64,000 bases of DNA from Croceivirga sp. (GTDB lineage: Bacteria > Bacteroidota > Bacteroidia > Flavobacteriales > Flavobacteriaceae): contig JANQSA010000001.1 of assembly GCA_028284285.1 (NCBI GenBank), positions 434,001 through 498,000 of the forward strand, given 5' to 3'. Of the stretch, positions 38,024-57,200 are shown piece after piece. Each line of letters starts with the position of its first letter. The stretch's first letter is position 1. Under the pieces are notes generated by a model. That model was not told where the DNA came from. It ran no database searches and was given only the letters and a program-made list of their open reading frames with translations. The position numbers and the translations under genes were made by a program.

Positions 38024-39094
38024 CTAGCAGGGATAAAAAATAACGCCACTGGAAGAATTCCGCCTGGCCCCGGTTACAGAAGCCAATACATTATCTTCGC
38101 CCAACTCCCGGAGTACACCCATAAATGCAAAAACCATCGCCTCTTTGTACGCAATGAATTTTTCAGGAGGTATAACTACCGTACAGACATTTTTTAGTTT
38201 TTCCCGGAGGGTATTCACAAAAAAGGTATTGAAGGCGCCACCACCCGTTACCAGGAGGGTACTGTCTGTCCCGGGATTTTCCTTTTTAATGATAGCTGCA
38301 ATTTGTTCAGCATTATGATGGATCACCGTATGAAGCAGATCTTCCGGGGCAGCATGGGTGGTATCTATCAGTGGTCGTACCTTTTGGGAAAACCATTCAA
38401 ATCCTGTAGACTTGGGGTAGGGGAGTTGATAGTACTCCAGAGCATTTAATTGTTGCAGCACCTCCGGGAGTAATTTACCTCTTTTAGCACGTTGGCCCCC
38501 AGCGTCGTATTTCAAGCCTATTTTTCCGGTGATATGATTCAAGGGCATATTCGCCATCCCAATATCAAACGCGAGGCGTTTCCCATCTTTGTGGAATGAA
38601 ATATTACTGATACCCCCAAGGTTCAGGCAAAAACTGTAACGGGCAAGTAATAATTCATCTCCAATAGGTACCAAAGGAGCTCCCTGTCCACCCAATTTCA
38701 CATCCAGAGACCTGAAATCACAGATTACTTTTTGTCCACTGGTGTTGGCTAGTTTTTGACCATCACCCAATTGAAAAGTATAGCCCTCTTCCGGACGGTG
38801 ATGCGAGGTATGCCCATGACTGGCCACAAAATCAACGGTTAAATCGTGTGAATGGAGAAATTCTTTCGCCCTTTCTCCCAGCCAAACGCCATACTCCAAA
38901 TGTAACTGGGAGTGTTCGCTTTCGGAAAGGTGAATGGCATTTTTTAATTTGTTATACAGCGCTTTGTTGTAGTTGATTGCGGTACATTGCCGGATCTCAA
39001 ATTCCCAGGTATCCTGTTCCTGCCAGAAATGACAATACGCCATATCCAATCCATCCAGGGAGGTACCCGACATTAATCCCAGTACTTTAAACAT
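38024..39094 (-). CDS. anmK: Anhydro-N-acetylmuramic acid kinase
   Basis: Cytosolic kinase of 356 residues that cleaves the 1,6-anhydro ring of anhMurNAc and phosphorylates it to MurNAc-6-phosphate. It opens with GLMSGTSLDGLDMAYCHF, the AnmK signature, and has FVASHGHTSHHRPEEG, LNLGGISNIS and LVTGGGAFN of the ASKHA ATPase fold. It overlaps the methyltransferase gene by eight bases and closes the minus-strand arm of the murein-salvage locus. Its product is the substrate of MurQ, encoded at 51454-52287. Confidence 0.95.
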   Translation of the reverse strand: MFKVLGLMSGTSLDGLDMAYCHFWQEQDTWEFEIRQCTAINYNKALYNKLKNAIHLSESEHSQLHLEYGVWLGERAKEFLHSHDLTVDFVASHGHTSHHRPEEGYTFQLGDGQKLANTSGQKVICDFRSLDVKLGGQGAPLVPIGDELLLARYSFCLNLGGISNISFHKDGKRLAFDIGMANMPLNHITGKIGLKYDAGGQRAKRGKLLPEVLQQLNALEYYQLPYPKSTGFEWFSQKVRPLIDTTHAAPEDLLHTVIHHNAEQIAAIIKKENPGTDSTLLVTGGGAFNTFFVNTLREKLKNVCTVVIPPEKFIAYKEAMVFAFMGVLRELGEDNVLASVTGARRNSSSGVIFYPC

Positions 39095-39764
39095 CTTTGC
39101 TGTGCTTTTTAATTACAATTATCAAAGAAACAGGGTGTTTATGATCATCTACTACCTCTGTAATTTGAAATGTAACCGTTTCAAGTTCCGAAATCAATGT
39201 ACTCCAATCTTCAAAAGTTCTGGCATACCAGGCATGACCGTTTTTGAAATTTCCCGGAAGTCCCTTCCAGGAATTGGAGAGCCATTGGGATTGATATCCT
39301 TTCCCGTTTTGAATTAAAAAATAGGGATGCAAGGTTTGAATGACCAAATGGCCGTCTGGGGTTAAAGCGTTTAGCGTGTTTTGTAATAATGGGGATAAAC
39401 CTTCCTCCAAATACAAGCAAAAATTGAAAACGGCAAGGTCAAACGGAAGGTTAGGAAGCGGGACGCCATTGATTATGGCTTCAAACGTGAACTGATGGTA
39501 GGTTTCAGGCCCTTTTGTTCGGGCATGCTCAATAAGTGGTGCTATGGCTTCAAAACCATAGGCCGTAATCTCCCTTTTGGTCAATTCGCGGGTGAGCCAC
39601 CCTTCTCCGCATCCCAGATCGGCAACTTTTTTAGGGCGTAGATTTACAATGACGTCCAGTACGGCTTGATTGGTGAACTTCCTGGAACCAATTTCCTGGT
39701 TTTGAATAACCTCAATCCATTCCGGGGCGTTCTCTTCCCAGGATTTTAATATTTCAGATTTCAT
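39087..39764 (-). CDS. Class I SAM-dependent methyltransferase in the murein-salvage operon
   Basis: A 225-residue cytosolic Rossmann methyltransferase. Motif I is VADLGCGEGWL at about residue 47; FDLAVFNFCLYLEE is the motif IV region and VIQTLHPYFLIQ follows. The N-terminal NAPEWIEVIQ and SRKFTNQAVLDVI resemble UbiG/Tam-like small-molecule methyltransferases. It overlaps nagZ by 11 bases and anmK by eight, so expression is tightly coupled. No known step of muropeptide recycling needs a methyl transfer; the substrate is unknown. Confidence 0.88.
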   Translation of the reverse strand: MKSEILKSWEENAPEWIEVIQNQEIGSRKFTNQAVLDVIVNLRPKKVADLGCGEGWLTRELTKREITAYGFEAIAPLIEHARTKGPETYHQFTFEAIINGVPLPNLPFDLAVFNFCLYLEEGLSPLLQNTLNALTPDGHLVIQTLHPYFLIQNGKGYQSQWLSNSWKGLPGNFKNGHAWYARTFEDWSTLISELETVTFQITEVVDDHKHPVSLIIVIKKHSKDV

Positions 39765-41313
39765 GTGAAATGGTTTTAAGTTGAACCGGTAGCTTCCCCG
39801 AGGCCTTTAATTTTCCCATAAAATGAGCGTATGCAATATCTTGAAAATCAGTAAAATCCTGATATACTACGGTAACCGCTATGGCATTTTTCCAATTCAG
39901 CAGATTTAACACAAAAGGATTTCCAAAGAGATAAAGTATTGTGCGCTTTTTTTCAAGGGTATGATGGATTTTTTCTAATTCCTGAGGGGTAAAACCAAAA
40001 TTATCTTTAGGTTTTACTTGTCTTGGAACTATGACCAGGAGTGCGTTTTCAGGATTTTTGGGAAAATCAATTACCGAGTTGCAAAAGGGTTGTTGCTGTT
40101 TTCCGATTAGGACGGTGTTAAACCCTTCGCTTCTAAAGGATGCCATATGGGAATCCGTACCTTTTAAAAGGGTAATGCTGGCTTTTGCAAGCGTTCTTAA
40201 AAAAGTGTCATGATCATCCGTGGAAAAACCGGAGGAACTATTTTCGGGAGGTGCAAAAGCCTTTTCTTTTAATTCCCATACCCGTTTAAAGCGTTGTTCA
40301 ATAGCATCCGTACTCCCCTTTTGTGAAATGATGCGTATTCCCTCTTCGATATGTTCCGAAAAGCAAAGGATATCTGTTCCGGCTTCGAATGCCGCATATT
40401 CCAGGGCTCCTTTCCCTGGAAATTGTTTTGAAACGGCTCTCATATTGAGGGCGTCCGAAATGACAACACCATTCCAGCCCAGTTCTCCACGTAAAAAATC
40501 TGTTATGATCTCTTTTGATAGGGAAGCGGAAATTGTTTTTCCCTTGCTCAAATAAGGAACAGCCAAATGGCCTATCATTACAGCATCTACATTGGGTTGC
40601 TGTAGATTGATGAATGGATAGAGTTCGTTCTCCAGTAACGCTACCTTCTGCTTCGTAATACAGGGCAAATCCAAATGAGAGTCAATTGTCGTGTCGCCAT
40701 GGCCCGGAAAATGCTTTATCGCATTCAAGGTTCCCGCAGACCACATTCCTTCCAAATAAGCCCTGGCATAGCGGGTTACCTGTTTTCTATCGGCCCCAAA
40801 AGAACGATATCCGATTACGGGATTTTCCGGATTTAAGTTAATGTCCACAACCGGGGCTAAATTCCAATGGATGCCGGCTTTTTTACAATCCAGGCCAATT
40901 CGCTTTCCAAGCTCAAAAATGAGGTCCTCTCCATTTTGTATAGCTCCCAGGGCAATAGCATAGGGGTACTGTGGGGTGTTTTCAATTCGCATGGCCAGGC
41001 CCCATTCGGCATCGATAGCTATGAGTAAGGGAACTTTCGCAGCGGTCTGATACCGATGGATCAGTTCCTGTAGCTTTTCGTAACTGGTATCGTTATATTC
41101 CGGTTGTTGTTTTGATTCAAAATTGGCGGCGGCGCTTGCACGGCTATGGAAGAAGCAGATACCACCTATGCGATACTTCCGGATAAGCGCTTCCAAATAC
41201 CGTACTTCCTCTTCTGTATCATTGATAAAAGCGGCGGGCATGAACAATTGCCCGACCTTTTCGGATAATGACAGCTCTTTTTTTGCTTTGCTATATGGGA
41301 TAATACTAGTCAT
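39754..41313 (-). CDS. nagZ: Beta-N-acetylglucosaminidase, glycoside hydrolase family 3 (NagZ type)
   Basis: A cytosolic enzyme (no signal peptide) of about 519 residues that removes GlcNAc from GlcNAc-anhMurNAc products of peptidoglycan turnover. KHFPGHGDTTIDSHLDLP near residue 200 contains the Asp/His dyad typical of NagZ, and VVISDALNMRAV contains the nucleophile Asp. A C-terminal domain (about 350-519) without the usual beta-lactamase fusion follows. ATG 41313 overlaps the ampG stop by eight bases; an upstream start at 41334 is less likely. Confidence 0.92.
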   Translation of the reverse strand: MTSIIPYSKAKKELSLSEKVGQLFMPAAFINDTEEEVRYLEALIRKYRIGGICFFHSRASAAANFESKQQPEYNDTSYEKLQELIHRYQTAAKVPLLIAIDAEWGLAMRIENTPQYPYAIALGAIQNGEDLIFELGKRIGLDCKKAGIHWNLAPVVDINLNPENPVIGYRSFGADRKQVTRYARAYLEGMWSAGTLNAIKHFPGHGDTTIDSHLDLPCITKQKVALLENELYPFINLQQPNVDAVMIGHLAVPYLSKGKTISASLSKEIITDFLRGELGWNGVVISDALNMRAVSKQFPGKGALEYAAFEAGTDILCFSEHIEEGIRIISQKGSTDAIEQRFKRVWELKEKAFAPPENSSSGFSTDDHDTFLRTLAKASITLLKGTDSHMASFRSEGFNTVLIGKQQQPFCNSVIDFPKNPENALLVIVPRQVKPKDNFGFTPQELEKIHHTLEKKRTILYLFGNPFVLNLLNWKNAIAVTVVYQDFTDFQDIAYAHFMGKLKASGKLPVQLKTISHEI

Positions 41314-42583
41314 TGGCACTTTCTTTTTTGCCATAATCTGCAGGGTACTTCAAAAAAGGTAATAAAAACAACGCCGGAAGTGCTCCAATGACCACCCAAA
41401 TGAAGAAACCGCCGTAGCCCAACCATTCCTGTACAAATCCGCTGAGCATCCCGGGAAGCATCATTCCCAGTGCCATAAAACCGGTTGCGATCGCATAATG
41501 TGACGTCTTTGATCTTCCTTCCGCTATATAGATCAGGTACATGAGGAAAGCAGCAAACCCAAAACCATACCCAAACTTTTCAAACACCACGGTGGCAGTA
41601 ACGGCAACAATACTGGTAGTCTTCGTAAATGCCAAGAAGGCATACAAAACATTAGGGATATTCAAGGAAAGTACCATAGGCAGCATCCACTTTTTGAGCC
41701 CATCCCTGGAAATTAAGATGCCCCCTAAAATTCCGCCGACAGACAACATAATAACACCAGCGGTACCGAAAATAGTTCCTAATTGTTCCGTGGAGTAACC
41801 AAGACCTCCCTTTTCCAACGGATCCAGTAAAAAAGGAGCGGCCATCTTAACAAGTTGGGATTCCCCTAAACGATAGGTAAGGATGAATGCCAGGGCCATA
41901 CCAATATTCGGTTTTTTAAAAAAGGACACAAAAACCTCCAAAAATCCCTTGGGTTTGTCCAGTGGGATGTTGCTTGACGTCTCGTATTTTGGAGTAGCAA
42001 AAAAATTGCAGGCGGTTAAGATCAACATCAGTAGGGCGGTTAGCGTCATGGTAATACTCCAGGCTCGGGTGTTGTCCCCGTAATAATTCTCCAGAAAACC
42101 CGCCAGGATCACAATAAGTCCTTCGCCGGTGACCATGGCTAAACGATAAAATGTACTACGGATCCCTACAAAAAAGGATTGCTTTTTTTCGCTCAGTCCA
42201 ATCATATAATACCCATCAGATGCAATGTCGTTGGTGGCTGAAGCAAATGCGGCCATCCAGAAACAGGCGAGGGTTGTAGTAAAGAACAGATTGGTTTGCA
42301 GGGAAAGGCCAACACCCAATATGGCCAGTGATATGACGAGTTGCATCGTCAGAAACCAGTTGCGCTTTGTGCTTTTCAGATCTACAAACGGACTCCACAA
42401 GGGTTTTAAAACCCAGGGCAAGTACAGCCAACTGGTATACAATCCAATATCGGCATTGCTAACACCTAACTTTTTGTACAGGATAACGGAAACGGTTACT
42501 ACAATAACATAGGGTAGTCCCTGTGCAAAATATAAAACGGGCACCCATACCCATGCGCGTTTGTCCTTGGGGATTTCCGCCAT
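41306..42583 (-). CDS. ampG: AmpG-type muropeptide MFS permease
   Basis: A 425-residue 12-helix transporter. FAQGLPYVIVVTVSVIL at the start and NDIASDGYYMIG in the middle are AmpG signatures; LGTIFGTAGVIM and a C-terminal GYGGFFIWVVIG stretch complete the pattern. AmpG proteins import GlcNAc-anhMurNAc, with or without peptide, across the inner membrane. Placement between a glycan hydrolase lipoprotein and NagZ agrees with that role. It overlaps nagZ by eight bases; the gap to the GHL10 gene is 61 bases. Confidence 0.92.
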   Translation of the reverse strand: MAEIPKDKRAWVWVPVLYFAQGLPYVIVVTVSVILYKKLGVSNADIGLYTSWLYLPWVLKPLWSPFVDLKSTKRNWFLTMQLVISLAILGVGLSLQTNLFFTTTLACFWMAAFASATNDIASDGYYMIGLSEKKQSFFVGIRSTFYRLAMVTGEGLIVILAGFLENYYGDNTRAWSITMTLTALLMLILTACNFFATPKYETSSNIPLDKPKGFLEVFVSFFKKPNIGMALAFILTYRLGESQLVKMAAPFLLDPLEKGGLGYSTEQLGTIFGTAGVIMLSVGGILGGILISRDGLKKWMLPMVLSLNIPNVLYAFLAFTKTTSIVAVTATVVFEKFGYGFGFAAFLMYLIYIAEGRSKTSHYAIATGFMALGMMLPGMLSGFVQEWLGYGGFFIWVVIGALPALFLLPFLKYPADYGKKESAND

Positions 42584-42644
42584 GACTATAATTTCAATGC
42601 TTTAAAGCGTTTTAACATCATTATTTCTAGACCAACCATATGGA

Positions 42645-44168
42645 TTATTTAAAATCGTACTCCTTAACGGGGATAGCATAGAATTCACTTTGGTTGCCAT
42701 AGGCATCAACAATCACTACACCCAGTCCTTTTCTTAAACTTTTGGGATCAGCCTGGATGCTTAGGCAAGCACCGGATTGATTTTCCGGAATATACGCTTT
42801 TCCCAGGAGCTGGTCAGGGGTTTTGGTATTACGATTTTTAAGACGAAATAGTCCTACGAATCTCGGTACGGAATCATAATGTGAAATGCACAGTTCCAGT
42901 TGCGCTTTGAATAAGCTTTGTGAGCGTATTCCCGGTTGGGGGATGTTTCGTGTCACCTTTTGGGGTAAAGGTGGGGTAAAAGCCGGATACGTATACAACC
43001 TTTTCCTGAGTTTTTTAACCACGTCGTCATGTTGGTATAGCAATGACTTTGCACTAAAAAAGACATTTCCCTGTATTTTGGGAAGGGAACGGGAGAACGA
43101 GAGTTGTTTTGGCAACTCCCTTTTTCTATTCCAGGCCTTATCCGCGTTGTTCCGGATTTTGTAAGGACCATTGCCTATGTACAGGTTAGTGGTTTTCACC
43201 GTATCTGCCCACCATGTGGTTATTTTCCGGTGTGAAGCCCTGGGGTAGTCCATGCTCCAATATACCTGGGGGACCAAATAATCCAACCATCCCTTTTGTG
43301 ACCAAAGAAGAGGGTCTGCGTATAGGTCTTCATAAGTTGTCTGACCAGCCTGAGTGTCTGAGCCCTTAAGGTCTGTACTTTTGTTTTTCCAGACACCGAA
43401 GGGACTAATACCAAACTGTACCCAGGGTTTTGTGCTTTTAATGGTTTTGTGAACTTTTTTGACCAGGGAATCCACATTACTTCTCCGCCAATCTTCAATT
43501 TTTTGATTAGGCAAACCGTAAGTCTGATACGTTAGGGTATCGTCAAAAACGGCCCCTTCTATTTTGTAGGGATAGAAGTAATCATCAAAATGAATGGCGT
43601 CTACCGGATAGTTCAGGACAATTTCTTCCACTACTTTTGAGAAATTTTCCTGAACTGCTGGTAACCCGGGATCATAATAGTATTTTTTGCCGTATTTCAC
43701 CATCCAATCCGGATGGGTATAAAAATCATGAGAAGTTGCTAAGGATAAGGTATCGAGATCAAAAGTGGCCCGATAGGGATTTAGCCATGCGTGAAACTCC
43801 ATGCCTCGTTTATGGGTTTCATGGATCATCCACTTCAGGGGGTCTTCAAAATCCTTTGGGGCTTCACCCTCTTTACCTGTAAGGTATTTGGACCAGGGTG
43901 CCAGTTTGCTGGGATAAAAAGCGTCGCCAGCCGTTCGTACCTGAACAATTGCCGCATTACAATTGAGTTGCTGATAAAAGTCCAGGATCTCAATGAAATC
44001 CTTTTTTTGTTGGGTTGCCTTATCGTTTCCATTCTTGGGCCAGTCTATGTTTACTACAGTAGCGATCCATACCCCTCTAAATTCATGTTTTGGGGTGGAT
44101 TTGTTATATCGACTAGCGGTACAGCCGGCTATGAGAATACCTAAAACAAGGAGTAGGAAGTAACGCAT
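42645..44168 (-). CDS. GHL10-family glycoside hydrolase lipoprotein (DigH/YngK type)
   Basis: A 507-residue lipoprotein (signal ends ILIAGC, Cys16). The catalytic TIM barrel starts with EFRGVWIATVVNIDWP and includes NAAIVQVRTAGDAFYPS, GMEFHAWLNPYRA and VDAIHFDDYFYPY, all typical of the GHL10 (DUF187) family. E. coli DigH, of this family, cleaves peptide-free peptidoglycan glycans. The C-terminal part after about 390 is an accessory beta domain. Lying downstream of susCD and before ampG, it could trim glycans in the periplasm or at the outer membrane to feed AmpG. Confidence 0.9.
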   Translation of the reverse strand: MRYFLLLVLGILIAGCTASRYNKSTPKHEFRGVWIATVVNIDWPKNGNDKATQQKKDFIEILDFYQQLNCNAAIVQVRTAGDAFYPSKLAPWSKYLTGKEGEAPKDFEDPLKWMIHETHKRGMEFHAWLNPYRATFDLDTLSLATSHDFYTHPDWMVKYGKKYYYDPGLPAVQENFSKVVEEIVLNYPVDAIHFDDYFYPYKIEGAVFDDTLTYQTYGLPNQKIEDWRRSNVDSLVKKVHKTIKSTKPWVQFGISPFGVWKNKSTDLKGSDTQAGQTTYEDLYADPLLWSQKGWLDYLVPQVYWSMDYPRASHRKITTWWADTVKTTNLYIGNGPYKIRNNADKAWNRKRELPKQLSFSRSLPKIQGNVFFSAKSLLYQHDDVVKKLRKRLYTYPAFTPPLPQKVTRNIPQPGIRSQSLFKAQLELCISHYDSVPRFVGLFRLKNRNTKTPDQLLGKAYIPENQSGACLSIQADPKSLRKGLGVVIVDAYGNQSEFYAIPVKEYDFK

Positions 44169-44180
44169 AGAAAGGAGAAA

Positions 44181-44210
44181 AAGGCCTGCTATTATTTTCC
44201 TGCAGGCCTT
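44181..44210 (-). terminator. Hairpin after susD, intrinsic terminator or attenuator
   Basis: AAGGCCTGC (44181-44189) pairs with GCAGGCCTT (44202-44210), a 9-bp stem. On the minus strand it is followed by TTTTTC. It lies between susD and the GHL10 gene and may reduce, rather than abolish, transcription into the downstream arm. Confidence 0.75.
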
Positions 44211-44236
44211 ATTTTTAATTATGGCTAACTCAAATT

Positions 44237-45568
44237 TTAAATTGAGGGATCCGGAGGAGTATTGGGATTACTGTTACGTTCAAGATCCGGATAAGGATAG
44301 AAATTCCTGTTCCGTTCCTCAGTAAAGTCCCTGGGCGCTCCGGAGGGTTCCGGCCTTCCGAATCTTCGGCTATCTTCCAAACTCATCCCGGTTAGAAAGA
44401 GCTCCGCCCTTCTGTTGCGATACACTTCATCTAAAAGCGCCTCAGCAGTGTTTGGACCGGAGTAGGCCGCTACATTGGCGTTCACCTCAAAAGGGTCATC
44501 CGTATCAGTGAGCACTTCATTTAAGGCCGTTGTGGCAGCTGCCAAATTAGGAGTACCTGTTCTTAGATTTGCCTCCGCAATAATGAGATTCATTTCGTCA
44601 GGAAGGTATACCGGGATCGGTTCTGTAACCTCATTAAAAAAACCGGAAACATCTTCAATAGGTAATCCGTTTGGGTTAGTCTCATCCAATGGAATAAAAT
44701 AAAAGGATAATCTACCATCATCAGGATCAAAGACAAATTCTGCGGGGAGCCCAAAATTATCCCGGGGTTTAAAATTGGGCGCATCATTCTGAATGATCCT
44801 GGCCCACATTGGATTAGGATTTTGAACATCATAGGCAAAAATGGAGGTAGAGGTCAAGTCCACATTACCGGCCGCAGAAATTGCCGCATCGTAGTTTCCG
44901 GCAAACAGATTATAGCGTGCTGTCATGGCAGCTATGGTATTGGGCAAATCAATATTACCCAGCGTTACTGCATCAACAAATTCACCGGAAGGGGCGTTAG
45001 CAGCCAACTCCGCCGCTGCCTCTGCCAAAAGGCCCAATGCTACTTGAAAACCTTCTGTTCTGGACACAAAGGCAGCATCATTTTCATTACTGGTAGCAAC
45101 AACGACTTGCTCATAGTTTTGTGCCAGACTGCCAATAGCCAGCGCTTTAAACAACTTGGCATGGGCCACTAGTCCACTTTGGGTCCCAGCTGCCAAGCCA
45201 ATATTAGGTGCACTGGCTTCAATTTGCTCTGCAACTCTCATCACCCGTAGCATAGTAGACCAGAGTCCCTGTACATTGGAATTAAAGTTGGGCAAAGCGG
45301 TACCGCCGTCTTCCAACTCGATCATGTTCTGAAAGGTAGTAGTGATCCCTCCTTCACGGGTAGTTACTGCCGGAGTCTCTGCAATCCATCTAATTCCCGT
45401 GGTAGAATAGACTTGTTGCAATCCTACTGCCGCAGCTAAAATCCCTTCCCTGGAGGAAAACACTTGGTTTTCCAAAGCTGCGTTGGGAGTATCAAAATCG
45501 GTTTCACAGGAAGCAAATCCTAAAAGCAATGAAACAGATAGCATAAAATATTTAAGATAATTTTTCAT
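44237..45568 (-). CDS. SusD/RagB-family outer-membrane glycan-binding lipoprotein
   Basis: A 443-residue surface lipoprotein (signal ends GFASC, Cys21). After the signal come the typical FDTPNAALENQVFSSREGILAAAVGLQQVY region (an opening helix pair), TPR-like helices and a C-terminal FLTGMSLEDSRRFGRP with ERNRNFYPYP. SusD proteins cap the SusC channel and trap glycans. It pairs with the susC gene 17 bases upstream. The substrate is inferred from context to be peptidoglycan-derived sugar, not read from sequence. Confidence 0.92.
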   Translation of the reverse strand: MKNYLKYFMLSVSLLLGFASCETDFDTPNAALENQVFSSREGILAAAVGLQQVYSTTGIRWIAETPAVTTREGGITTTFQNMIELEDGGTALPNFNSNVQGLWSTMLRVMRVAEQIEASAPNIGLAAGTQSGLVAHAKLFKALAIGSLAQNYEQVVVATSNENDAAFVSRTEGFQVALGLLAEAAAELAANAPSGEFVDAVTLGNIDLPNTIAAMTARYNLFAGNYDAAISAAGNVDLTSTSIFAYDVQNPNPMWARIIQNDAPNFKPRDNFGLPAEFVFDPDDGRLSFYFIPLDETNPNGLPIEDVSGFFNEVTEPIPVYLPDEMNLIIAEANLRTGTPNLAAATTALNEVLTDTDDPFEVNANVAAYSGPNTAEALLDEVYRNRRAELFLTGMSLEDSRRFGRPEPSGAPRDFTEERNRNFYPYPDLERNSNPNTPPDPSI

Positions 45569-45585
45569 CGTGCTTGTTTTTTTAA

Positions 45586-48500
45586 TTAGAAACTTACGTT
45601 GATCCCTAATTGATAGGTTCGTGGAATAGGTACTCCCGCAAAATCGAACCCTCTTACCCCGTTACTTTGACCGGCAGTGTTGATTTCAGGATCCCATCCC
45701 GAATAGTCATCCCATGATATGAGATTTCGCCCTACCAGACTTAACTGGACGTTTTCTATGCCATCTATTGGAGGTTTAAAATCATAACTTAATGCCAATT
45801 CCCTAAGTTTTACAAAGGAACCATCTTCCACAAATTCCTCAAAGATATTAGCCTGTGCGCCTCCAAATCCTTTTGGGCGGTTACCCAGGAGTTCCTGCCC
45901 TACGTTAAAGCCGCCACCGAAAATCACATTATCCAAAAGTCTTCGGTTCCAGTTAAAGACATCAAATCCCTGTACGGCATCCAGTTGAATACGCAGTTTA
46001 AAGTTTTTATACGCAAACTCGTTAATAAGCGAACCGAACCAATCCGGATTGGGGTCACCAATAACTTTATTGAGAATGGTTCCACTGGGCTGACCGTCTG
46101 TATCCCTCTCGGGAACATTGGTAAGGGTGTTACCCCTTTCAGGTTGCGGATAACCGTCTGGTGTCAACAAAAGACTGCCATCATCATTTCGTGCATAAAA
46201 TGCGCGATTAAAAACACCTAAAGGTTGTCCTTCTATCACGAAGTTGGTTGAAAAACTTCCTGGCAAAGCAAATTGGCCTCCTGCTACACGTGTGACGATA
46301 TTTTCATTTTGAGAAAAGGTGGCCGTCACATCCCATGAAAAGTCATTGGTACGGATAGGGGCTCCTCTTATCAGCAATTCAATCCCTTCATTTTCCAGGT
46401 CACCTACGTTTTCAATTCGGGTACCAAAACCGGTTGAAGGGGCTAACTCCCTTTCCAATAGCAGGTCGGTCACGTTTTGTTTATAGTAGGTGAATTCGAT
46501 ACCCAATCGGTTATTGAACAAACCGGCGTCAAATCCTATTTCAAATTCTTCCTGCCGTTCAGGAGCAATATTGAGGTCTCCCTGCTGCGTGTCAGGAAGT
46601 AGACTTGGGGAACCATTGATTGAAGATGGATTAAAGAGTGTAAATCTTTGAAAAGCCGACAAGGCAGTTAGGTTACCGGCCTGTCCCCAGGAACCTCTGA
46701 GCTTAAAGGTATTAAAAACGTCTCCAAAAGTATTTTTCCAAAAATCTTCTTCGGAGATGACATAGGATAAACTGGCTTTGGCATATAATTGGTTACGCTC
46801 GTCTTCTCCAAAAGTAGACGCGCCATCCAGCCGTATGGCCCCATTTACATACAATTTATTTTTAAAACTAAAGGATTGTTGCAAAAAAGTACCCCAGTAC
46901 GAAATCTGGTCCCTGTTTTCTCCTTGTGCAAACAAACTACCGTTGGCAGCTATCTCAACCACCGGTACCAATCCGTCAGCTTCAATACCTATTCGATCGA
47001 ATTCTTCGTATTGCCAGGACCCACCTAAGGTAGTGGTTGAGGAAATATCCTCGTTAATGCGGGTGTCATAAATCAAGTTTAAATCGTTATTGTATTGAAA
47101 GCTGTTTAAATCTGCCCGTCTGGAAAATCCATCCCCGTTGGGAGAAGTATTGTTTGTAGGAATAAAGGCCGTAGCGGATTGGTTATAGAAATCCAATCCC
47201 AAAATATAACTGGCGCGTAATTTGTCAGTTATTTTAGCATTCAGTGCTAAACTTGTAATCACCCGATTGACCTTTTGACCAAAATTAAAGCGTTCCACGG
47301 CCTCCAACGGATTGGTCCTGGGAACCAACAAAGAAGTTACTGGATAAATACCGGATTCATCCGGACGGGGATCTATGGAATTGTCGCTAAACACGAAGCC
47401 TGTGATGGCACCATAAGGTGCATTTATCCCGCCATTGGGAATATCGTTACTCACACTCCTTACGTAGTTAAGGCCCAAATTGATCTCCAGCCAATCCCAG
47501 GCCTGCTGGGTAAGGTTGGATTTGAATCCGATTCTTTGAAAGTCCGTATTCTTTATAATGCCTTCGTTGTCCAGAAAGGATCCGGAAATGTAGTATTTGG
47601 TCTTTTCATTACCTCCAGTAACGGAAAGGAAGTTTTCCACACCAAAACCTGAAGTAAAAAACTCGTCCTGAAGATTAAAGCGCTCAACGGGTACCGTTTC
47701 CAGATTGGTCCTGTCAAAAGGATCTACCCAGGCTAAAGGAACCGTATTGTAATCAATCTCTTTTCTTAACTCATTCACCCGGACATTGGTAGAAAAGTTG
47801 AACTTGGGAGCTCCACTGCTTCCTCTTTTGGTAAAGATCTGTACCACACCGTTACTTGCCCTGGATCCATAGATGGCAGCAGCAGCAGCGCCTTTGATGA
47901 TCTCTATGCGTTCAATATCGTTGGGATTTAAGTCTACCAGACGGTTTTGCGAGGTGCCTCCTAAGTCCACCAGATCATTACTGTTACTTGAATTATTTAC
48001 AAATATTCCATCTATAATATACAGCGGATCAGAACTCCCTAAGACCGTACTGGGGCCTCGTAACCGGATACTGATCCCTCCGGCAGGATCACCGGAATTT
48101 TGTTGCACCAGCGCTCCGGTAATTTTCCCTGAAATGGCCTGATCTACAGCAATGGCCCCGTTGTTCACCAGTTCTTCTGCTTTTACGGAAGAAATGGCAT
48201 TACCCAGTGTTCTTTTGTTCACCCCAACCGGATTACCGGTAACCACTACCTCGTCAAGACTTAACAGGTCTTCGAACAAGCTAACATCTGTGGTAATGGT
48301 GTAATTGGAACCTAATTGTAGTTCTAAATTTTGACTGGCATATCCCAAAGAACTGAAGGATAAAGTGTAGCTTCCTTCTTCCAGGGTAGCTGTAAAGCTA
48401 TAATTTCCATCAAAATCAGTGATTGTCCCAAGTGATGTACCCTGGATAAACACAGATGCCCCAATAATGGGTTGCCCTGTACTGTTGTCTGTCACTGTTC

Positions 48501-48609
48501 CGTTCAAAGTATACTGACTTTGTCCAAAACTAAAACCCATTACCGCTAAAATGGCAAGGAGCGATAGGCGGAAACGGTTTTTTCTTTCATAATCATAACG
48601 TCTTCCCAT
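45586..48609 (-). CDS. SusC/RagA-family TonB-dependent outer-membrane transporter
   Basis: A 1007-residue outer-membrane protein. A signal peptide (core LLAILAVMGFSFGQ) is followed by a carboxypeptidase-regulatory-like domain (about 30-110; GTVTDNSTGQPIIGASV), a TonB-box-like LDEVVVTG at about 118 and a plug with LYIIDGIFV and YGSRASNGVV. A 22-strand barrel ends with GINVSF, a terminal aromatic residue as expected. It is eight bases downstream of nagB. SusC takes up oligosaccharides with TonB energy. The barrel itself does not reveal the substrate. Confidence 0.95.
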   Translation of the reverse strand: MGRRYDYERKNRFRLSLLAILAVMGFSFGQSQYTLNGTVTDNSTGQPIIGASVFIQGTSLGTITDFDGNYSFTATLEEGSYTLSFSSLGYASQNLELQLGSNYTITTDVSLFEDLLSLDEVVVTGNPVGVNKRTLGNAISSVKAEELVNNGAIAVDQAISGKITGALVQQNSGDPAGGISIRLRGPSTVLGSSDPLYIIDGIFVNNSSNSNDLVDLGGTSQNRLVDLNPNDIERIEIIKGAAAAAIYGSRASNGVVQIFTKRGSSGAPKFNFSTNVRVNELRKEIDYNTVPLAWVDPFDRTNLETVPVERFNLQDEFFTSGFGVENFLSVTGGNEKTKYYISGSFLDNEGIIKNTDFQRIGFKSNLTQQAWDWLEINLGLNYVRSVSNDIPNGGINAPYGAITGFVFSDNSIDPRPDESGIYPVTSLLVPRTNPLEAVERFNFGQKVNRVITSLALNAKITDKLRASYILGLDFYNQSATAFIPTNNTSPNGDGFSRRADLNSFQYNNDLNLIYDTRINEDISSTTTLGGSWQYEEFDRIGIEADGLVPVVEIAANGSLFAQGENRDQISYWGTFLQQSFSFKNKLYVNGAIRLDGASTFGEDERNQLYAKASLSYVISEEDFWKNTFGDVFNTFKLRGSWGQAGNLTALSAFQRFTLFNPSSINGSPSLLPDTQQGDLNIAPERQEEFEIGFDAGLFNNRLGIEFTYYKQNVTDLLLERELAPSTGFGTRIENVGDLENEGIELLIRGAPIRTNDFSWDVTATFSQNENIVTRVAGGQFALPGSFSTNFVIEGQPLGVFNRAFYARNDDGSLLLTPDGYPQPERGNTLTNVPERDTDGQPSGTILNKVIGDPNPDWFGSLINEFAYKNFKLRIQLDAVQGFDVFNWNRRLLDNVIFGGGFNVGQELLGNRPKGFGGAQANIFEEFVEDGSFVKLRELALSYDFKPPIDGIENVQLSLVGRNLISWDDYSGWDPEINTAGQSNGVRGFDFAGVPIPRTYQLGINVSF

Positions 48610-48617
48610 AGAGTTGT

Positions 48618-50558
48618 TTAGTTTAAATTAGTATTGAGTTGATATCTCACAAAACCCTCGATGGCTTCATATTCAGCCATGCCCAGGGCATTGTATCGGT
48701 TAGCGGTCTCCTTGTTTCGTTGTTGGGCTCTTTGCCAAAATTCCCGGTCGTCATTTCCCGGAAACATAGCACTGTCTTTTTGCGATTGATGCTTGAATAT
48801 GGCATTGATCTTTCGCATCATATCTTTGGGACCAATGGGAACGGCCATTTCCATATCCGCAATATCCCATTCCTGCCATGCTCCTCTATACAACCATATA
48901 TAACAATCGTTTATCCAATCTGCGTTTTCGGCTACAAAGCGATCCAGGGTCTTGTAGATGATTTCCAAACAAACCCTATGTGTGCCATGAGGGTCGGAGA
49001 GGTCCCCGGCAGCGAAAATCTGTTGAGGTTGTAGTTCAGCCAATAAATCATAGGTAATTTTAATATCCGCCTCGGTATATGGCTTTTTCCGCACCGCTCC
49101 CGTTTCATAAAACGGGAGATTTAAAAAGTGTGCATTTTCTTCCGATATACCACAATATCGGCAGGCAGCCAAAGCCTCTCCTTTCCGTATGAAGCCTTTG
49201 AACTGTTGGATTTCCTGACTATCAATTTGCCCGGGCTTTTTATGGGCTAAAAATTCACGTACCTGGGTAAATTGTTTCTTAAGTATTTTATTATCCGCTT
49301 GCACATCGGTAGCGAAATCCAAAAATCGAATCACTTCGTCATCAAACACGGCAATATTTCCGGAAGTTTGGTAGGCTACATGGACCTTATGCCCCTGATC
49401 CACAAGTCGTAAGAGCGTACCTCCCATAGAAATCACATCATCATCAGGGTGAGGGCTAAAGATCAGGGAAGTTTTAGGATAGGGTAGGGCACGTTCCGGG
49501 CGCTGACTGTCATCGGCATTGGGTTTTCCTCCCGGCCAGCCTGTAATTGTTCTTTGTAATTGGTTAAAGACTTTAAGATTGATAGACTCAGCTGAACCCA
49601 CTTCGGCTATCAGATTCCCCATACCGTATTCGTTATAATCTTCATTGGTCAGCTTTAGAATTGCTTTATGGAGTTTTTCGGATAACCAAATGGTGGCCTT
49701 TTTTATAAGTTGGTCATTCCATTCACATTCGGAAACCAGCCAGGGGGTTCTCACCCGGGTTAAAAAGGAGGAGGCTGCATCGTCCAGGATAAAATCGCAA
49801 TTGGGATGATGCTGTAAAAATGTAGCAGGAACGGTTTCGCGTATAGGACCTTCAATGGTTTGTTGAATTATATCAGCCTTACCCTCTCCCCAGGCCATCA
49901 AAATAATTTTACGTGCACTCATAATAGTACCTACTCCCATGGTAATGGCCCGTAAGGGAACATTTTCTTCGCCAAAGAAATCACTGGCAGCATCAAGCCG
50001 TGTTACTCTATCCAAACGAATGAGACGCGTTCCGCTGGTTAAGGAAGATCCCGGTTCATTAAACCCTATGTGCCCTGTCCTTCCAATTCCAAGTACTTGA
50101 ATATCAATACCTCCAACTTCTTCTATGGTTTTTTCATAGGCCTTGCAAAACTCTTTGATTTCAGTATTTTGAAGGTCTCCCCTGGGAATATGAATATTTT
50201 CTTTAGGGATATCTATATGGTCAAAGAGGTGTTCATTCATGAACCGGACGTAACTGTGAATAGAATCCGGATCCATAGGATAATATTCATCCAGATTAAA
50301 TGTGATAACATTATGAAAACTGAGTCCTTCTTTTTTATGAAATTGCACTAAATACTCATATACCTTGGTGGGTGTTGAACCTGTTGCCAACCCAATGACC
50401 GCATGTTTACCAACTTTGCTACGGGATTGAATGAGATCGGCAATTTCTCTAGCTACATGAAATGATGCTCTCTGAGAAGTATCAAAAAGTAGGGTGTTTA
50501 CTTTTTCATACTTCAAACCTTCTTCCGGAAAGGGATCGACAGATTTTGCTGATATCAT
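48618..50558 (-). CDS. nagB: Glucosamine-6-phosphate deaminase fused to a PIG-L/LmbE-type deacetylase domain
   Basis: A 646-residue fusion without signal peptide. Residues about 20-280 are NagB: GLATGSTPTKVYEYL, NLDEYYP (Asp90, Glu91), GIGRTGHIGFNEPG (His163) and the flexible lid. Residues about 360-600 form a PIG-L/LmbE domain: FSPHPDDDVISMGG with HPDDD at 370-374, and a DPHGTHR segment that supplies the distal His ligands. NagB turns glucosamine-6-P into fructose-6-P and ammonia. PIG-L enzymes deacetylate GlcNAc derivatives, so the fusion may carry out deacetylation then deamination of GlcNAc-6-P. No nagA is near. The gene heads the minus-strand murein operon. Confidence 0.93.
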   Translation of the reverse strand: MISAKSVDPFPEEGLKYEKVNTLLFDTSQRASFHVAREIADLIQSRSKVGKHAVIGLATGSTPTKVYEYLVQFHKKEGLSFHNVITFNLDEYYPMDPDSIHSYVRFMNEHLFDHIDIPKENIHIPRGDLQNTEIKEFCKAYEKTIEEVGGIDIQVLGIGRTGHIGFNEPGSSLTSGTRLIRLDRVTRLDAASDFFGEENVPLRAITMGVGTIMSARKIILMAWGEGKADIIQQTIEGPIRETVPATFLQHHPNCDFILDDAASSFLTRVRTPWLVSECEWNDQLIKKATIWLSEKLHKAILKLTNEDYNEYGMGNLIAEVGSAESINLKVFNQLQRTITGWPGGKPNADDSQRPERALPYPKTSLIFSPHPDDDVISMGGTLLRLVDQGHKVHVAYQTSGNIAVFDDEVIRFLDFATDVQADNKILKKQFTQVREFLAHKKPGQIDSQEIQQFKGFIRKGEALAACRYCGISEENAHFLNLPFYETGAVRKKPYTEADIKITYDLLAELQPQQIFAAGDLSDPHGTHRVCLEIIYKTLDRFVAENADWINDCYIWLYRGAWQEWDIADMEMAVPIGPKDMMRKINAIFKHQSQKDSAMFPGNDDREFWQRAQQRNKETANRYNALGMAEYEAIEGFVRYQLNTNLN

Positions 50559-50595
50559 AGTAATGCTCTCTTAAAGTTTAATTAAAAATAACTAA

Positions 50596-50669
50596 AAAAT
50601 GGCAGGTAATAATATATTTTGCAATTTTTTGTTTATTATTTTTAAACAATTGCAAGAAATTGCCATTTT
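50596..50669. promoter_or_regulatory. Nested inverted repeats between nagB and the DeoR-type regulator gene
   Basis: Outer arms AAAATGGCA (50596-50604) and TGCCATTTT (50661-50669) enclose inner arms TTGCAATT...GTTTA (50619-50635) and TAAACAATTGCAA (50643-50655). The two sets are almost co-centred. They lie in the only intergenic stretch between the two divergent arms of the locus, so they are good candidates for the operator of the adjacent repressor. Confidence 0.5.
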
Positions 50670-50704
50670 CTTTATTTTTATTTCTGAAATTCAGTTATTG
50701 CCTT

Positions 50705-51454
50705 ATGCTTAAGGAGGAACGCCAGCAGATAATTCTGAATGAGGTGAGGATCCACAACAAAGTGTTGTTGACAGACCTTGCCTCATTTCTTGATGTTTCC
50801 ACGGATACGGTCCGAAGGGATATTAAGGAGCTTGATACCTTGAAGAAGCTCAAAAAAGTACATGGGGGAGCCATATCACTTGGATTTGATAATCATCCTT
50901 TGGTGGGTGATAAGATCTATGCCCTGGAAAAGAAATCACTTATCGCCCAAAAAGCACTTAGATTGATAAAAGAGGGGCAGGTGATATTGTTGAGCGGGGG
51001 CACTACTAACCTGGAAATTGCCAGAAGAATCCCCAATAAAGTCAGGCTCACCTGTTTTACACCCAGTTTACCCATTGCATTTCAGTTGTTGGAAAAACCC
51101 AATATAGAAGTCGTTTTTATTGGAGGCCGACTTTCCAGGGACTCACAAATTGCTGTAGGGGGTAGTGCAATAAATATGTTATCAGACATAAAGGTAGATT
51201 TATGCTTTATGGGAACCAATTCCATTCATTCGATAGAGGGCCTTACCGAATTTGATTGGGAGATAGTGCAAATGAAAAAGGCCATGATCAAAAGCTCAAG
51301 AAAAGTAATCTCACCATGTATTTCGGAAAAAATCGGTTCTTTGCAACGCTACAAAATCTGTGGGGCAGAAGAAGTTGATATTTTAGTAACGGAGCTGGAG
51401 CCATGGGACATGAAACTCGAAGTATTTAAAAATAAAGATATAGAACTGCTATAA
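50705..51454 (+). CDS. DeoR/GlpR-family transcriptional regulator
   Basis: A 249-residue repressor-type protein. The N-terminal HTH (about 3-55) contains LTDLASFLDVSTDTVRRDIKEL, a hallmark of DeoR, followed by KKVHGGAIS. The C-terminal sugar-phosphate sensor domain (about 75-230) has LSGGTTNLEIAR, VFIGGRLSRD and LCFMGTNSIHSIEGLTEFD. The likely inducer is a sugar phosphate of the pathway such as MurNAc-6-P, GlcNAc-6-P or GlcN-6-P. ATG 50705 is chosen over 50660, which would add a hydrophobic run before the HTH. Its stop overlaps the murQ start (TAATG). Confidence 0.92.
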   Translation: MLKEERQQIILNEVRIHNKVLLTDLASFLDVSTDTVRRDIKELDTLKKLKKVHGGAISLGFDNHPLVGDKIYALEKKSLIAQKALRLIKEGQVILLSGGTTNLEIARRIPNKVRLTCFTPSLPIAFQLLEKPNIEVVFIGGRLSRDSQIAVGGSAINMLSDIKVDLCFMGTNSIHSIEGLTEFDWEIVQMKKAMIKSSRKVISPCISEKIGSLQRYKICGAEEVDILVTELEPWDMKLEVFKNKDIELL

Positions 51455-52287
51455 TGAGTATTGAAACGCATAAGAAGATAACGGAGGCACCTTCCAATTA
51501 TGACAACCTGGAGTTAATGGCGACCTCAGAAATTATCAGCGGGATCAATCAGGAAGATAAAAAAGTAGCGGTTGCCGTGGAGAAAGTGCTACCAAAGATC
51601 ACAAATTTAGTAGATCGTATTGCGGAACGTTTTAAGGAAGGAGGTCGCCTCTTTTATATTGGTGCGGGAACGAGTGGTAGGCTGGGTATCCTTGACGCTT
51701 CTGAAATACCTCCCACATTTGGAATTCATGATCGGGTTATTGGACTTATTGCCGGTGGGGATGGAGCCATCAGAAAGGCTGTGGAATTTGCCGAGGACAA
51801 TACCCTACAAGGATGGAAAGATCTGGAAAAACACGCTATTACTACTACGGATGTTGTGGTAGGGATTGCCGCATCGGGAACTACTCCTTATGTTTTGGGG
51901 GCGATAGAGGATGCGAAAAGGCATGGCTTGTTAACTGCTTGTATTACCAATAATCCCGGTTCACCACTTGCTGAGGCAGCGGAAATCCCTATTGAGGTTG
52001 AAGTAGGCCCGGAGTTTGTTACGGGGAGTACACGAATGAAAAGTGGTACCAGTCAAAAATTAGTGCTCAATATGATCTCTACCGCCTTAATGATCAAAAT
52101 CGGTAGAATAAAAGGGAATAAAATGGTAGATATGCAACTGAGCAACAACAAGTTGTTAGATCGCGGTACCCGATATCTGGTAGAAGCATTGGATATTCCC
52201 TATGGTGAGGCAGAAAAAGCGCTTAAAAAATATGGCTCTGTACGGGCGGCCATCGCATATTTCAAACAAGGAAACACAAACGAGTAA
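51454..52287 (+). CDS. murQ: N-acetylmuramic acid 6-phosphate etherase
   Basis: Cytosolic enzyme of 277 residues that removes D-lactate from MurNAc-6-P to yield GlcNAc-6-P. The SIS domain shows FYIGAGTSGRLGILDASEIPPTFG, the diagnostic MurQ active-site segment, and EFVTGSTRMKSGTSQK. It begins within the regulator stop codon. It connects AnmK (making MurNAc-6-P) to the NagB fusion, and so closes the pathway. At 277 residues it is about 20 residues shorter than E. coli MurQ, mostly at the C-terminus. Confidence 0.95.
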   Translation: MSIETHKKITEAPSNYDNLELMATSEIISGINQEDKKVAVAVEKVLPKITNLVDRIAERFKEGGRLFYIGAGTSGRLGILDASEIPPTFGIHDRVIGLIAGGDGAIRKAVEFAEDNTLQGWKDLEKHAITTTDVVVGIAASGTTPYVLGAIEDAKRHGLLTACITNNPGSPLAEAAEIPIEVEVGPEFVTGSTRMKSGTSQKLVLNMISTALMIKIGRIKGNKMVDMQLSNNKLLDRGTRYLVEALDIPYGEAEKALKKYGSVRAAIAYFKQGNTNE

Positions 52288-54265: not shown

Positions 54266-57200
54266 ATGCCCAGGAAAAATACAAGGCGACTTTTGTATGC
54301 CGTGCTATTGGTGCTATCTTCCATTGCTGTTTCTTCGGCTTTTCTTAAAAGTGAAATCAAGGATGTTGTTGCTGCTTTCGATTTGTTTTCAGAAAGTCAA
54401 AAAACTGCAGCATCTTCTGAGCTTAATACCATTGCCGTATCTGCTGCTCATAAAGAAGAGGTAGCTACCGCAATGCTGAACCCCATGTTTACGACTATCC
54501 TCCAGGGCGCGGATGAAGAGGTAGGATGTAGCAATAACGGATTTACTGTAGCACGTTTTAACCTTTGCGGTGATTCCGATAACAGGACGATCACCTTAGC
54601 CGGAGGACCTTACAGCTCCGTGGAGTGGCAGCTACTGGGAGGTTCCTGTACTCCAGATGTAAACGAAGATTGCCCGAACACCACCACCTCATGCTACACT
54701 ACAGTGAGCACCGGGCAGGCCTTTAACCTGGATGCCAGTACCGTTCCGGCAGGCTCCGGAGCAGAATTCAGAGTGGTGGCGGATGGACAGCAGTATTTCT
54801 TCAAAGTAAAGAAGAGTACTATTACCCAAACCCATGTGAAACGAGACTATATCTGTGGGGTAGACGGCCGTATACAGATTACTAACCTTTCCAGCGCCTA
54901 CGAGTTTAGTATTGATGATGGCACCGGTTTTGGTCCCTGGCAACCTTCTCCCATCTTTGACGGGCTCCCTCCCGGCACGTATATCGTAAAAGCACGTTTA
55001 GAAAACACCCCTAACACCTGCGAATATCCCTACGATCCCATTGTCATTGAACAATTGGACATAAGCATTGGTGTTGAATTTGAAGATGCCTTTTGCTTTG
55101 GGGATACGGGTAGCATAGAAGTTACCGTAAACGACGTGCCCGGCCCGTACAGATATACGCTATTAGATGAGCTGGGCACTCCCATTGAATTTACCACCTT
55201 TATTACCGCTAATCCTTATACCTTTAATGCTGTAGGTTTTGGTACCTATAGTGTACAGGTAGAAACACAGCAGTGTACAGGTGATATTGCTAACGGTATC
55301 CCGCCTCCACGACAAGATTTGGATATAACCGGAAATCCTATTGTTATAGGTGATGGGATCATTGCATTATCCGCTTCTACCGAGGTGAATGAGAGTTTGA
55401 GTACGGTACCTGCCTGTAACCCACTTGGTGGGGTCAATATTATTTTAAGAACCTTAGGAGGTACTCCACCTTATACGTACACCGTGAATGGTGTGCCAGG
55501 GGGCACCTTTAGTCCACCACAGACATTACACAATGTAACTGCGGCAGGCACCTATAATTTCGTGATTACGGATTCAAGTGATCCTACGGGAGTCAACAGT
55601 TGTATTATTACGGCATCCGCTGTTGTGGAAGAATTGACCCCGCCCGATGTTACCGTAAGTGGTGTAGATGGTACCTGTACCAATGGAGGGGCACGTTTGA
55701 ATTTCACAATTGTAGACGGTAAGGGGTATGATCTTAGTTTTAGGGCCACACCGGCAGATGCCTGGAGCACGAGTCCCAGTATCTCCGTACCGGCAGGTAC
55801 GTATGGCAATAGTAATCCTTCCGGATCAATGCAAGTACTTTACGAACAAGGGAGTTTCAGTTGTATTCTTGAATTGAATACTGATGTCACCGTCACCGAA
55901 ACAGGAGCCATTAATGGGACCACTCCCACGTTTACCAATCGCTCCTGCAATGCTTCAGGCGGTATAGACAATGGTTCCATTGAATTTCCCGGCACCTATT
56001 CAGGTGCTGGTGGCGGACCGTATCAATTCAGTATCAACGGCACTGATTTCTCTTCGCAACAGTTGTATACCAACCTGCCTGCAGGGACCTATACTCCGGC
56101 AGTACGGAATGCAGCTGGCTGCCGACGTGATTTTTCAGAAATTGAAATTCTTGACGTAGACCCACCCACTGATATTGCATTTACCCAAAGCAATACGAAT
56201 TGTGCCGCTAATACTTCTGATGTACAGCTAACACCAACCGCTAGTGCTACAATTGACCGCTACGAACTTATCAGTCCTATTACATTAGACAATAATACAA
56301 ACAACACCTTTACCGGATTGACCAATAATGTCAATCATGTCTTTAGGATTACCGACAGCAATGGTTGTACCTACGAAGAAAGTTTCACGCCTGCAGTGAT
56401 CAGTTCCATCCGGGCACGTGTCAAATCAGGCGGTGATTTGAGGGTTTGCAACGGGCAAACTGACGGTTCGGGAACATTTATCATTGATGGTTTTGGATCT
56501 AATTATACCTATAATATTGATGGAGGGCCCGAAAGTGCTCCCCAAAACGATTTGGAAGTCGATGTGAACACGCTCGGTGACGGTTCCTATACGATTACTG
56601 TGACCGATGTGGACACGGGTTGCACCGATACGGCTACATTGACCGTTGTTGAAGCGGCACTGATTGATTTGTCAACAAGTGTGGTAACCCCAATGAGTTG
56701 CGCCAATAACAATATTGGCAGGCTCCGGGTTAACGCAACAGGCGGATGGGGTAATTATGTGTACACACTCCAACCTCCTACAGGTCCACCCATAGTTAGA
56801 ACCGGTAGGAATTTTGGCGGTTTGACGCAGGCGGGTAGTTATACATTAACCGCTGAGGATGCCGAGGGGTGTACAGGAACATTTATGTTCACACTAGATC
56901 CACTCAATGCCCCTGTTTTAGCATATGATGCTGCTTCATCAGATCTATGTTATGTACCAGGCACGGGTGCTACTTTAGCCGTAACGGCGACATTGGGAGC
57001 AGGGTCTCCTGGTTTCCCTGCAGAACCCTACAGGATAAATGGAGGGGCATGGCAGGCGAGCCCTTCCTTTTCAGGCCTCCCTCCCGGGGATTATACCATA
57101 GAGGTGAGAGATCAAAATGACTGTAGAGATACTATTAATTTAACAGTTAATCCACAACTCCGCGTTTCGGCATCCTTAAATACAGAAATCCCATGCGGTG

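Follow-up and report, generated by a model that had tools for sequence, protein, structure and literature searches.

Peptidoglycan sugars are recovered through an established path that runs from AmpG through NagZ and AnmK to MurQ; AnmK and MurQ serve N-acetylmuramic acid (MurNAc), and the N-acetylglucosamine 6-phosphate (GlcNAc-6-P) produced by MurQ requires deacetylation ahead of NagB. In recycling of the Escherichia coli type (AmpG-NagZ-AnmK-MurQ-NagA-NagB), we take NagA to be present and an outer-membrane importer to be lacking. Here, we describe a locus of ten genes within a 64,000-nucleotide stretch (hereafter, the window) of the genome of Croceivirga sp. (Flavobacteriaceae; 4.8 Mb, 99.9% complete; assembly GCA_028284285.1, contig JANQSA010000001.1, positions 434,001 to 498,000). 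This locus, in which enzymes are assigned by family, has the four steps from AmpG to MurQ in common with E. coli-type recycling; it differs in that its NagB is fused to a PIG-L domain and in that NagA over the curated cut-off was not found, and it contains a SusC-SusD pair (SusCD).

With regard to Bacteroidota, an operon of Tannerella forsythia has been described that encodes a xanthan lyase, two glycosyltransferases, LytB, AmpG, YbbC, MurT, MurK and MurQ (PMC5388701, PMC7670621). Like the present locus, this ampG-murTKQ operon combines AmpG and MurQ, there for the use of external MurNAc sources; unlike the present locus, the operon genes named in the relevant passages include no SusCD, NagZ or GHL10. 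The same passages give the T. forsythia genome as predicted to lack AnmK and the operon promoter as activated by GppX rather than by a DeoR protein, and they place the known Bacteroidota importers of peptidoglycan pieces, AmpG and MurT, at the inner membrane, leaving the outer-membrane step unaddressed. The NanOU locus for sialic acid, as outlined in PMC3969230, resembles the window locus in having SusC, SusD and linked catabolic genes, but the predicted substrate of the window locus is peptidoglycan glycan. No SusCD system for peptidoglycan was described in the titles and abstract openings searched, which covered little of the subscription literature. Finally, Cwp19 of Clostridioides difficile shares its GHL10 catalytic domain with a protein of the locus; in the portion of PMC6016235 consulted, Cwp19 is an autolysin with cell-wall-binding repeats and lytic transglycosylase activity, which also yields some reducing-end products with unsubstituted MurNAc ends, whereas the GHL10 lipoprotein of the window is encoded among import genes.

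The window locus has SusC, an adjacent SusD-fold lipoprotein and linked GHL10, glycoside hydrolase family 3 (GH3) and DeoR genes, as in SusCD polysaccharide utilization loci (PULs); its architecture is that of an ordinary PUL and its predicted substrate is unusual. We consider it probable that this locus is a PUL for peptidoglycan sugars in which an importer-regulator cassette has been added to a native recycling operon. The evidence includes the linkage of SusD relatives to peptidoglycan-sugar genes and the differing affinities of the genes of the locus.

Linkage of the SusCD pair to peptidoglycan-sugar genes

Our scan covered 80 named loci, picked by likeness to the window SusD from 451 SusD relatives; the members sharing 77-83% identity come from records under the names Allomuricauda, Flagellimonas or Muricauda. 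Counting genes for AnmK, MurQ, AmpG, NagZ, NamZ, MurT-like, NagB-PIG-L, GHL10 and dipeptide-epimerase-like proteins, we found that 60 of the 80 loci have one or more of these peptidoglycan-sugar genes no farther than about 10 kb from SusD, or 58 when two weak single hits are set aside (one GH3 of 765 aa in L065 and one MurT-like protein at 38% in L067). L126 and L128-L131 were counted on a divergent AnmK alone, which in L129 was confirmed by Pfam (311.9 bits). The most frequent partners were AnmK (51 loci), MurQ (47), NagZ (44), GHL10 (44), AmpG (41) and NagB (32), and rarer ones were MurT-like (4), NamZ (3) and epimerase (1) proteins; the label MurT is our presumption; the L027 query matched no Pfam family and a relative matched HGSNAT_cat. 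AmpG, NagZ and AnmK occurred together in 39 loci, 36 of them from Allomuricauda/Flagellimonas/Muricauda or Arenibacter and one each from Algicola, Aquimarina and Fulvivirga records. Other arrangements included DeoR-SusC-SusD-methyltransferase-AnmK-symporter-MurQ (L064, L068), SusCD-NamZ-symporter-MurQ-MurT-like (L063), a set of NamZ, symporter, MurQ, GH3 and NagB (L109), and AnmK-SusC-SusD in Pontibacter and Rufibacter.

By contrast, among 20 other SusC loci over the cut-off in the same genome, none carried AnmK, MurQ, AmpG, GHL10, NagB, NamZ, this type of DeoR or the methyltransferase, and one had a 24%-identical GH3 (control stretches 12 to 20 kb long, in part overlapping and four cut by contig ends). 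In a family sample, SusD orthologues above 300 bits were present in 4 of 119 other genera, and all four had peptidoglycan-sugar neighbours (NagB-PIG-L and an epimerase-like gene; NamZ; AnmK and MurQ; NamZ, GH3 and a MurT-like gene), while none of the tested genes accompanied L028 and L029, whose SusD proteins are weak relatives from the family. Among 395 genomes of the class, SusD relatives at E up to 1e-60 were found in 14, from five families; leaving the own genome and G119 uncounted, linked genes were seen in 5 of 12, three of the five from one family, and counting G119, where NamZ lies beside SusCD, gives 6 of 13. Fisher tests against the 0/20 controls gave p 2.6e-10 for 60/80 and p 0.004 for 5/12, values that overstate the case because related genomes are not independent. 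SusD is thus strongly linked to peptidoglycan-sugar genes among near relatives of the window and partially so among distant ones. The PUL-like unit for peptidoglycan sugars proposed in the initial annotation finds support in the recurrent linkage and the same-genome control; linkage across the class is weaker. The distant members L202-L206, L209 and L210 lack the tested genes, two of them (L202, L210) having a DeoR gene; from such members, the SusCD clade may have further uses.

Several additional genes recur in these loci. A methyltransferase of one family, for which the known pathway offers no step, lies within the salvage operon or straight after SusD in 54 of the 80 loci (besides the window, L064-L068, L071, L072, L074, L075, L077, L078, L084 and L086, among others), directly behind SusD in Maribacter- and Gramella-type loci. 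Twelve loci (e.g., L109:12716-14179) have a gene of the sodium:solute symporter family, mostly near SusCD and in none together with AmpG; its product is a candidate for sugar import across the inner membrane. In one relative, a mandelate-racemase-type enzyme, perhaps a dipeptide epimerase involved in using murein peptides, is encoded between NagB-PIG-L and SusC (L024:5305-6327). In Maribacter forsetii, a laminarin study places a GH3 gene beside an AnmK gene with a GH10 gene farther off, in a passage that offers no peptidoglycan reading of the pair (PMC11345257); these neighbours are probably the same core operon.

Origin of the regulator and importer

AnmK is encoded throughout the genus (11 of 11 genomes). 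Eight of 10 congener stretches have the order nagB, GHL10, ampG, nagZ, anmK with a divergent deoR-murQ arm and without susC and susD; of the two exceptions, L043 ends inside nagZ at a contig end and L048 is without GHL10 and AmpG. The methyltransferase occurs in 4 of the 10 stretches. No susCD relic was found in the 1-kb nagB-GHL10 gap of congener L042, which contains another open frame, of about 319 codons.

Best matches divide the locus. Identities outside versus inside the genus were 79 vs 60% for DeoR, 81 vs 77% for NagB, 71 vs 59% for GHL10 and 65 vs 59% for the methyltransferase, and SusC and SusD had matches only outside the genus; the outside set is biased by the choice of the 80 loci for likeness to the window SusD. 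Closest to congeners (congener vs outside) were AnmK (70 vs 62%), NagZ (61 vs 56%), AmpG (89 vs 80%) and MurQ (83 vs 77%), as were the flanking major facilitator superfamily (MFS; 84 vs 82%) and carboxylase (94 vs 90%) genes, while two genes beyond MurQ were undecided. DeoR to GHL10 form a single unbroken stretch (42645-51454).

In the DeoR tree (33 of 75 rows; 24-29 rows in each of the other gene trees), the window regulator falls into a 98/95 clade with Allomuricauda/Flagellimonas and Arenibacter regulators, which includes the second, susC-facing DeoR of operons with two DeoRs; all nine congener DeoRs lie behind a 100/100 branch together with the first, nagB-facing DeoRs of such operons. A constraint holding window and congener DeoRs together was rejected (p-AU 9.6e-70). 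MurQ of the window and of congeners grouped at 99/99, and the six nearest rows in the AmpG tree were congeners. Congener NagBs fall into two groups, which share 55-56% and 75-78% identity with the window NagB; the tree rows did not include the GHL10 of L051 and the NagBs of L046 and L047. On these sequence comparisons, the regulator and the importer look foreign to the genus and AmpG, NagZ, AnmK and MurQ look native, and our reading is that a susCD cassette with its regulator entered a native recycling operon and displaced the resident regulator. Loss of susCD from the other congeners is conceivable for susCD alone but would be insufficient to account for the DeoR tree.

An importer of this kind could also recapture the cell's own turnover fragments as they leak through the outer membrane, which would improve recycling rather than scavenge from others. 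Such recapture would fit with the core genes standing together without susCD in 8 of 10 congener stretches, as in plain recycling, and with the NamZ lipoprotein and lipoprotein amidase encoded elsewhere in the genome, which could process the own wall. Set against it are the ten congeners without a SusD orthologue, where recycling works without the importer, and a regulator that differs from that of the congeners, although both are compatible with recapture; we judge it rather unlikely.

A number of observations weigh against a peptidoglycan-directed cassette in a native operon. No tested peptidoglycan-sugar gene lies nearby in 20 of the 80 near SusD relatives (9 on stretches shorter than 16 kb and 10 with 19 kb or more; 10 with a methyltransferase after SusD) or in 7 of the 12 class-wide relatives, and the 80 loci are for the most part drawn from a small number of related genera, so that they cannot count as independent. 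The 10 congeners yielded no SusD orthologue (a single weak match of 21.5 bits). Three susC-facing DeoRs (L064, L067, L072) sit in the congener part of the tree; regulator type and importer are therefore not strictly coupled. An AmpG clade of window and congeners was rejected (p 0.029), as was one of window and outsiders (7e-7), and the GHL10 and NagB proteins have outsiders as their nearest rows, yet both groupings were rejected for each. The AmpG and NagZ proteins belong to the right families but fall under the curated equivalog cut-offs, and for this reason they are named by their wider family and their context. Unsubstituted MurNAc ends, such as Cwp19 leaves, would presumably not be AnmK substrates. 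With regard to whether the two halves of the locus stay linked in relatives, a question raised in the initial annotation, the outcome is thus mixed, as the importer is missing from congeners and stands without the tested genes in 7 of 12 class-wide relatives, while it occurs within the same operon in several other genera.

The absence of the tested genes from those 7 class-wide members, together with the presence of susCD in only 1 of the 11 genus genomes, would also suit an unrelated transporter pair that landed in the operon by chance and whose substrate is unconnected to peptidoglycan. For near relatives, the control loci (0/20, save the distant GH3) reject such an insertion, which they do not for distant ones, and the variety of peptidoglycan-sugar gene arrangements around the pair in several families, often with a DeoR of one family adjoining it, argues against chance; we hold it to be improbable.

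Importer and GHL10 enzyme

The protein beside SusC reaches 18.9 bits against Pfam SusD_RagB, below the cut-off of 23.1. An AlphaFold2 model built from 21 sequences (mean pLDDT 77.4, pTM 0.80) was searched with Foldseek; among the best 50 of 790 PDB matches (E up to 10), 29 have SusD or SusCD in the title and the remainder comprises 21 sugar-, glycan- or nutrient-binding and unlabelled Bacteroides proteins (e.g., NanU, SGBP-A), with moderate TM-scores of about 0.4 to 0.6. The model thus supports a SusD fold for this divergent protein.

Chitin-binding SusD-like proteins are among these matches (ranks 34, 41, 43 and 47), as are many others, and NagB would suit any amino sugar; the pair could accordingly import chitin oligosaccharides or another glycan of N-acetylglucosamine (GlcNAc), the MurNAc genes being mere neighbours that feed the GlcNAc-6-P pool. 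However, the ten locus proteins have no GH18 or GH20 domain, and the recurrent partners are AnmK (51/80 loci) and MurQ (47/80), plus NamZ in 3; we consider import of such a glycan hardly likely and continue with peptidoglycan glycan as the predicted substrate.

The window SusD carries CETDFD after its lipobox. At least two acidic residues were found among the five after the cysteine in 67 of 75 SusD lipoboxes (81 proteins, 6 of them without a lipobox match and hence uncounted), whereas all 34 GHL10 lipoboxes (44 proteins, 10 likewise uncounted; Cys16 in the window protein) had none. This SusD pattern is like the Capnocytophaga surface-export signal of acidic residues behind the lipid-bearing cysteine, as summarized in part of PMC5080379. 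The predicted location is therefore the surface for SusD and the periplasm for GHL10; a surface-exposed GHL10 enzyme was considered and set aside on the same lipobox pattern.

The GHL10 protein, which had been likened to DigH, matches the Cwp19 structure 5oq2 with E 2.3e-104 over 375 residues, the sole solved relative found by sequence; DigH was outside this comparison. By analogy with Cwp19, it is predicted to be a lytic transglycosylase that would give 1,6-anhydro products. A GNAT acetyltransferase of about 160 aa adjoins GHL10 in 22 loci, all with AmpG (e.g., L093:12889-13368), and is not found in the 61-base AmpG-GHL10 gap of the window. The lack of a MurK-type kinase previously pointed out holds for the cluster but not for the genome, which encodes, unlinked, a relative of solved MurNAc/GlcNAc kinases (E 2e-48), a ROK kinase and a NamZ lipoprotein. 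A lipoprotein Amidase_2 enzyme is also encoded elsewhere in the genome, and peptide removal would happen via such enzymes outside the locus.

NagB-PIG-L fusion

No NagA over the cut-off was found in any of the 11 genus genomes (best match in the host genome, 19.6 bits vs 225.65). The route to fructose-6-P, apparently complete in the initial annotation, therefore lacks a recognized enzyme for the NagA-type deacetylation in 11 of 11 genomes; AnmK and MurQ match over their cut-offs. When 120 genera of the family were compared, 11 had strong NagA matches, at 188-289 bits with every other match under 38, five of the 11 being over the curated cut-off; the NagB-PIG-L fusion was over its cut-off in 58, including all 11 with strong NagA, so that 47 of the 58 have the fusion without a strong NagA match. 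In 8 of the 11 NagA genera, no more than 10 kb separates NagA from a NagB that has no PIG-L domain.

The PIG-L half matches PF02585 (66.4 bits vs 28.2), and the motifs HPDD and DPHGTH (HxxH), which we take to be metal-site motifs, are invariant in 16 of 16 fusion proteins. By sequence, this half is weakly similar to diacetylchitobiose deacetylases (E 7e-5 over 49 residues); a model of the fusion (pTM 0.57) retrieved NagB structures first and diacetylchitobiose deacetylase at ranks 47, 49 and 50. As no NagA over the cut-off is encoded in the genus, the PIG-L half may replace NagA, and we newly propose that the fusion may both deacetylate and deaminate GlcNAc-6-P; another, unrecognized deacetylase is a conceivable alternative. 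A literature search found no work bringing together NagB, PIG-L and NagA.

Gene content of the locus

All ten genes annotated in the two divergent arms were confirmed as open reading frames (ORFs) at their coordinates (Table 1), and most are indeed overlapping or within 20 bases of each other (6 of 9 junctions). Overlaps are 8 (AnmK/methyltransferase), 11 (methyltransferase/NagZ), 29 (NagZ/AmpG) and 1 base (DeoR/MurQ); short gaps are 17 (SusD-SusC) and 8 bases (SusC-NagB); longer gaps are 61 (AmpG-GHL10), 68 (GHL10-SusD) and 143 bases (divergent NagB-DeoR). For DeoR, the ATG at 50702 is used as start, the ORF list having a TTG start at 50660.

Table 1. Features of the probable peptidoglycan-sugar locus, in window coordinates (38024-52287), with the basis of each assignment.
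Feature	Position	Strand	Basis
AnmK, anhydro-MurNAc kinase (cytoplasm)	38024..39094	-	PRK09585.2-3, 484.6 bits vs cut-off 436; PF03702
Class I S-adenosylmethionine (SAM) methyltransferase	39087..39764	-	Methyltransf_23
NagZ-type GH3 N-acetylglucosaminidase	39754..41334	-	PF00933, 221 bits; PRK05337, 148.4 bits, below cut-off 207
AmpG-family MFS transporter (inner membrane)	41306..42583	-	TIGR00901, 190.9 bits, below cut-off 350
GHL10 lipoprotein, Cwp19-like, predicted periplasm-facing lytic transglycosylase	42645..44168	-	PF02638, 255 bits
Divergent SusD-like surface lipoprotein (predicted)	44237..45568	-	Fold model, lipobox; Pfam below cut-off
SusC TonB-dependent outer-membrane transporter	45586..48609	-	TIGR04056, 595.9 bits vs 368.25
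NagB-PIG-L fusion: GlcN-6-P deaminase and PIG-L deacetylase domain	48618..50558	-	PRK02122, 1046.4 bits vs 384
Divergent intergenic region, presumed operator and promoters	50559..50701	.	Position
DeoR-family regulator	50702..51454	+	HTH_DeoR and DeoRC
MurQ, MurNAc-6-P etherase	51454..52287	+	TIGR00274, 310.3 bits vs 302

Curated NCBIfam cut-offs were passed by AnmK, MurQ, SusC and the NagB-PIG-L fusion. In the NagZ-type GH3, a signal peptide was not seen by eye, and the translation contains the stretch KHFPGHGDTTIDSH, which we assume to be significant for NagZ. TGCAAA-type words are common in 65 DeoR-facing intergenic gaps, with TGCAAAAAA in 36 of the 65 (a count without shuffle control); such words are a possible candidate operator, and thus a lead. 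Beyond the locus, 54266-62905 encodes a repeat-rich protein of 2879 residues with a signal-like start and a C-terminal stretch that, by eye, we take to resemble a gliding/adhesin-type end.

Proposed pathway and significance

In the pathway that we propose, SusD on the surface and TonB-driven SusC would take peptidoglycan glycan fragments to the periplasm, where GHL10 would cut the glycan and leave 1,6-anhydro-MurNAc (anhMurNAc) ends, as judged from Cwp19. AmpG would then carry GlcNAc-anhMurNAc into the cytoplasm, NagZ would split it, AnmK would give MurNAc-6-P, MurQ would convert this to GlcNAc-6-P, and the fusion would deacetylate and deaminate GlcNAc-6-P to fructose-6-P. The DeoR protein, which differs from the congener DeoR by tree, would have arrived with susCD and would control both arms. 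Both the substrate and the inward direction of flow are what we infer from gene context; the frequent siting of the importer beside cell-wall sugar genes in related bacteria suggests a role in taking up cell-wall fragments from the surroundings.

For a broader proposal, we regard the case as evenly balanced: a previously unassigned SusCD clade of Flavobacteriaceae and other families of the class would be a dedicated outer-membrane importer of peptidoglycan glycan fragments and in several lineages would have joined operons for peptidoglycan sugars, frequently together with a DeoR gene, turning recycling into scavenging, with NagB-PIG-L replacing NagA and NagB in much of the family. If this is true, the outer-membrane step in the import of peptidoglycan pieces would gain a named system, bacterial cell walls would join the substrates of SusCD loci, and a recycling operon would become a scavenging one by the gain of a transporter and a regulator, while the fusion would supply the missing amino-sugar deacetylase in 47 of the 120 sampled genera of the family.

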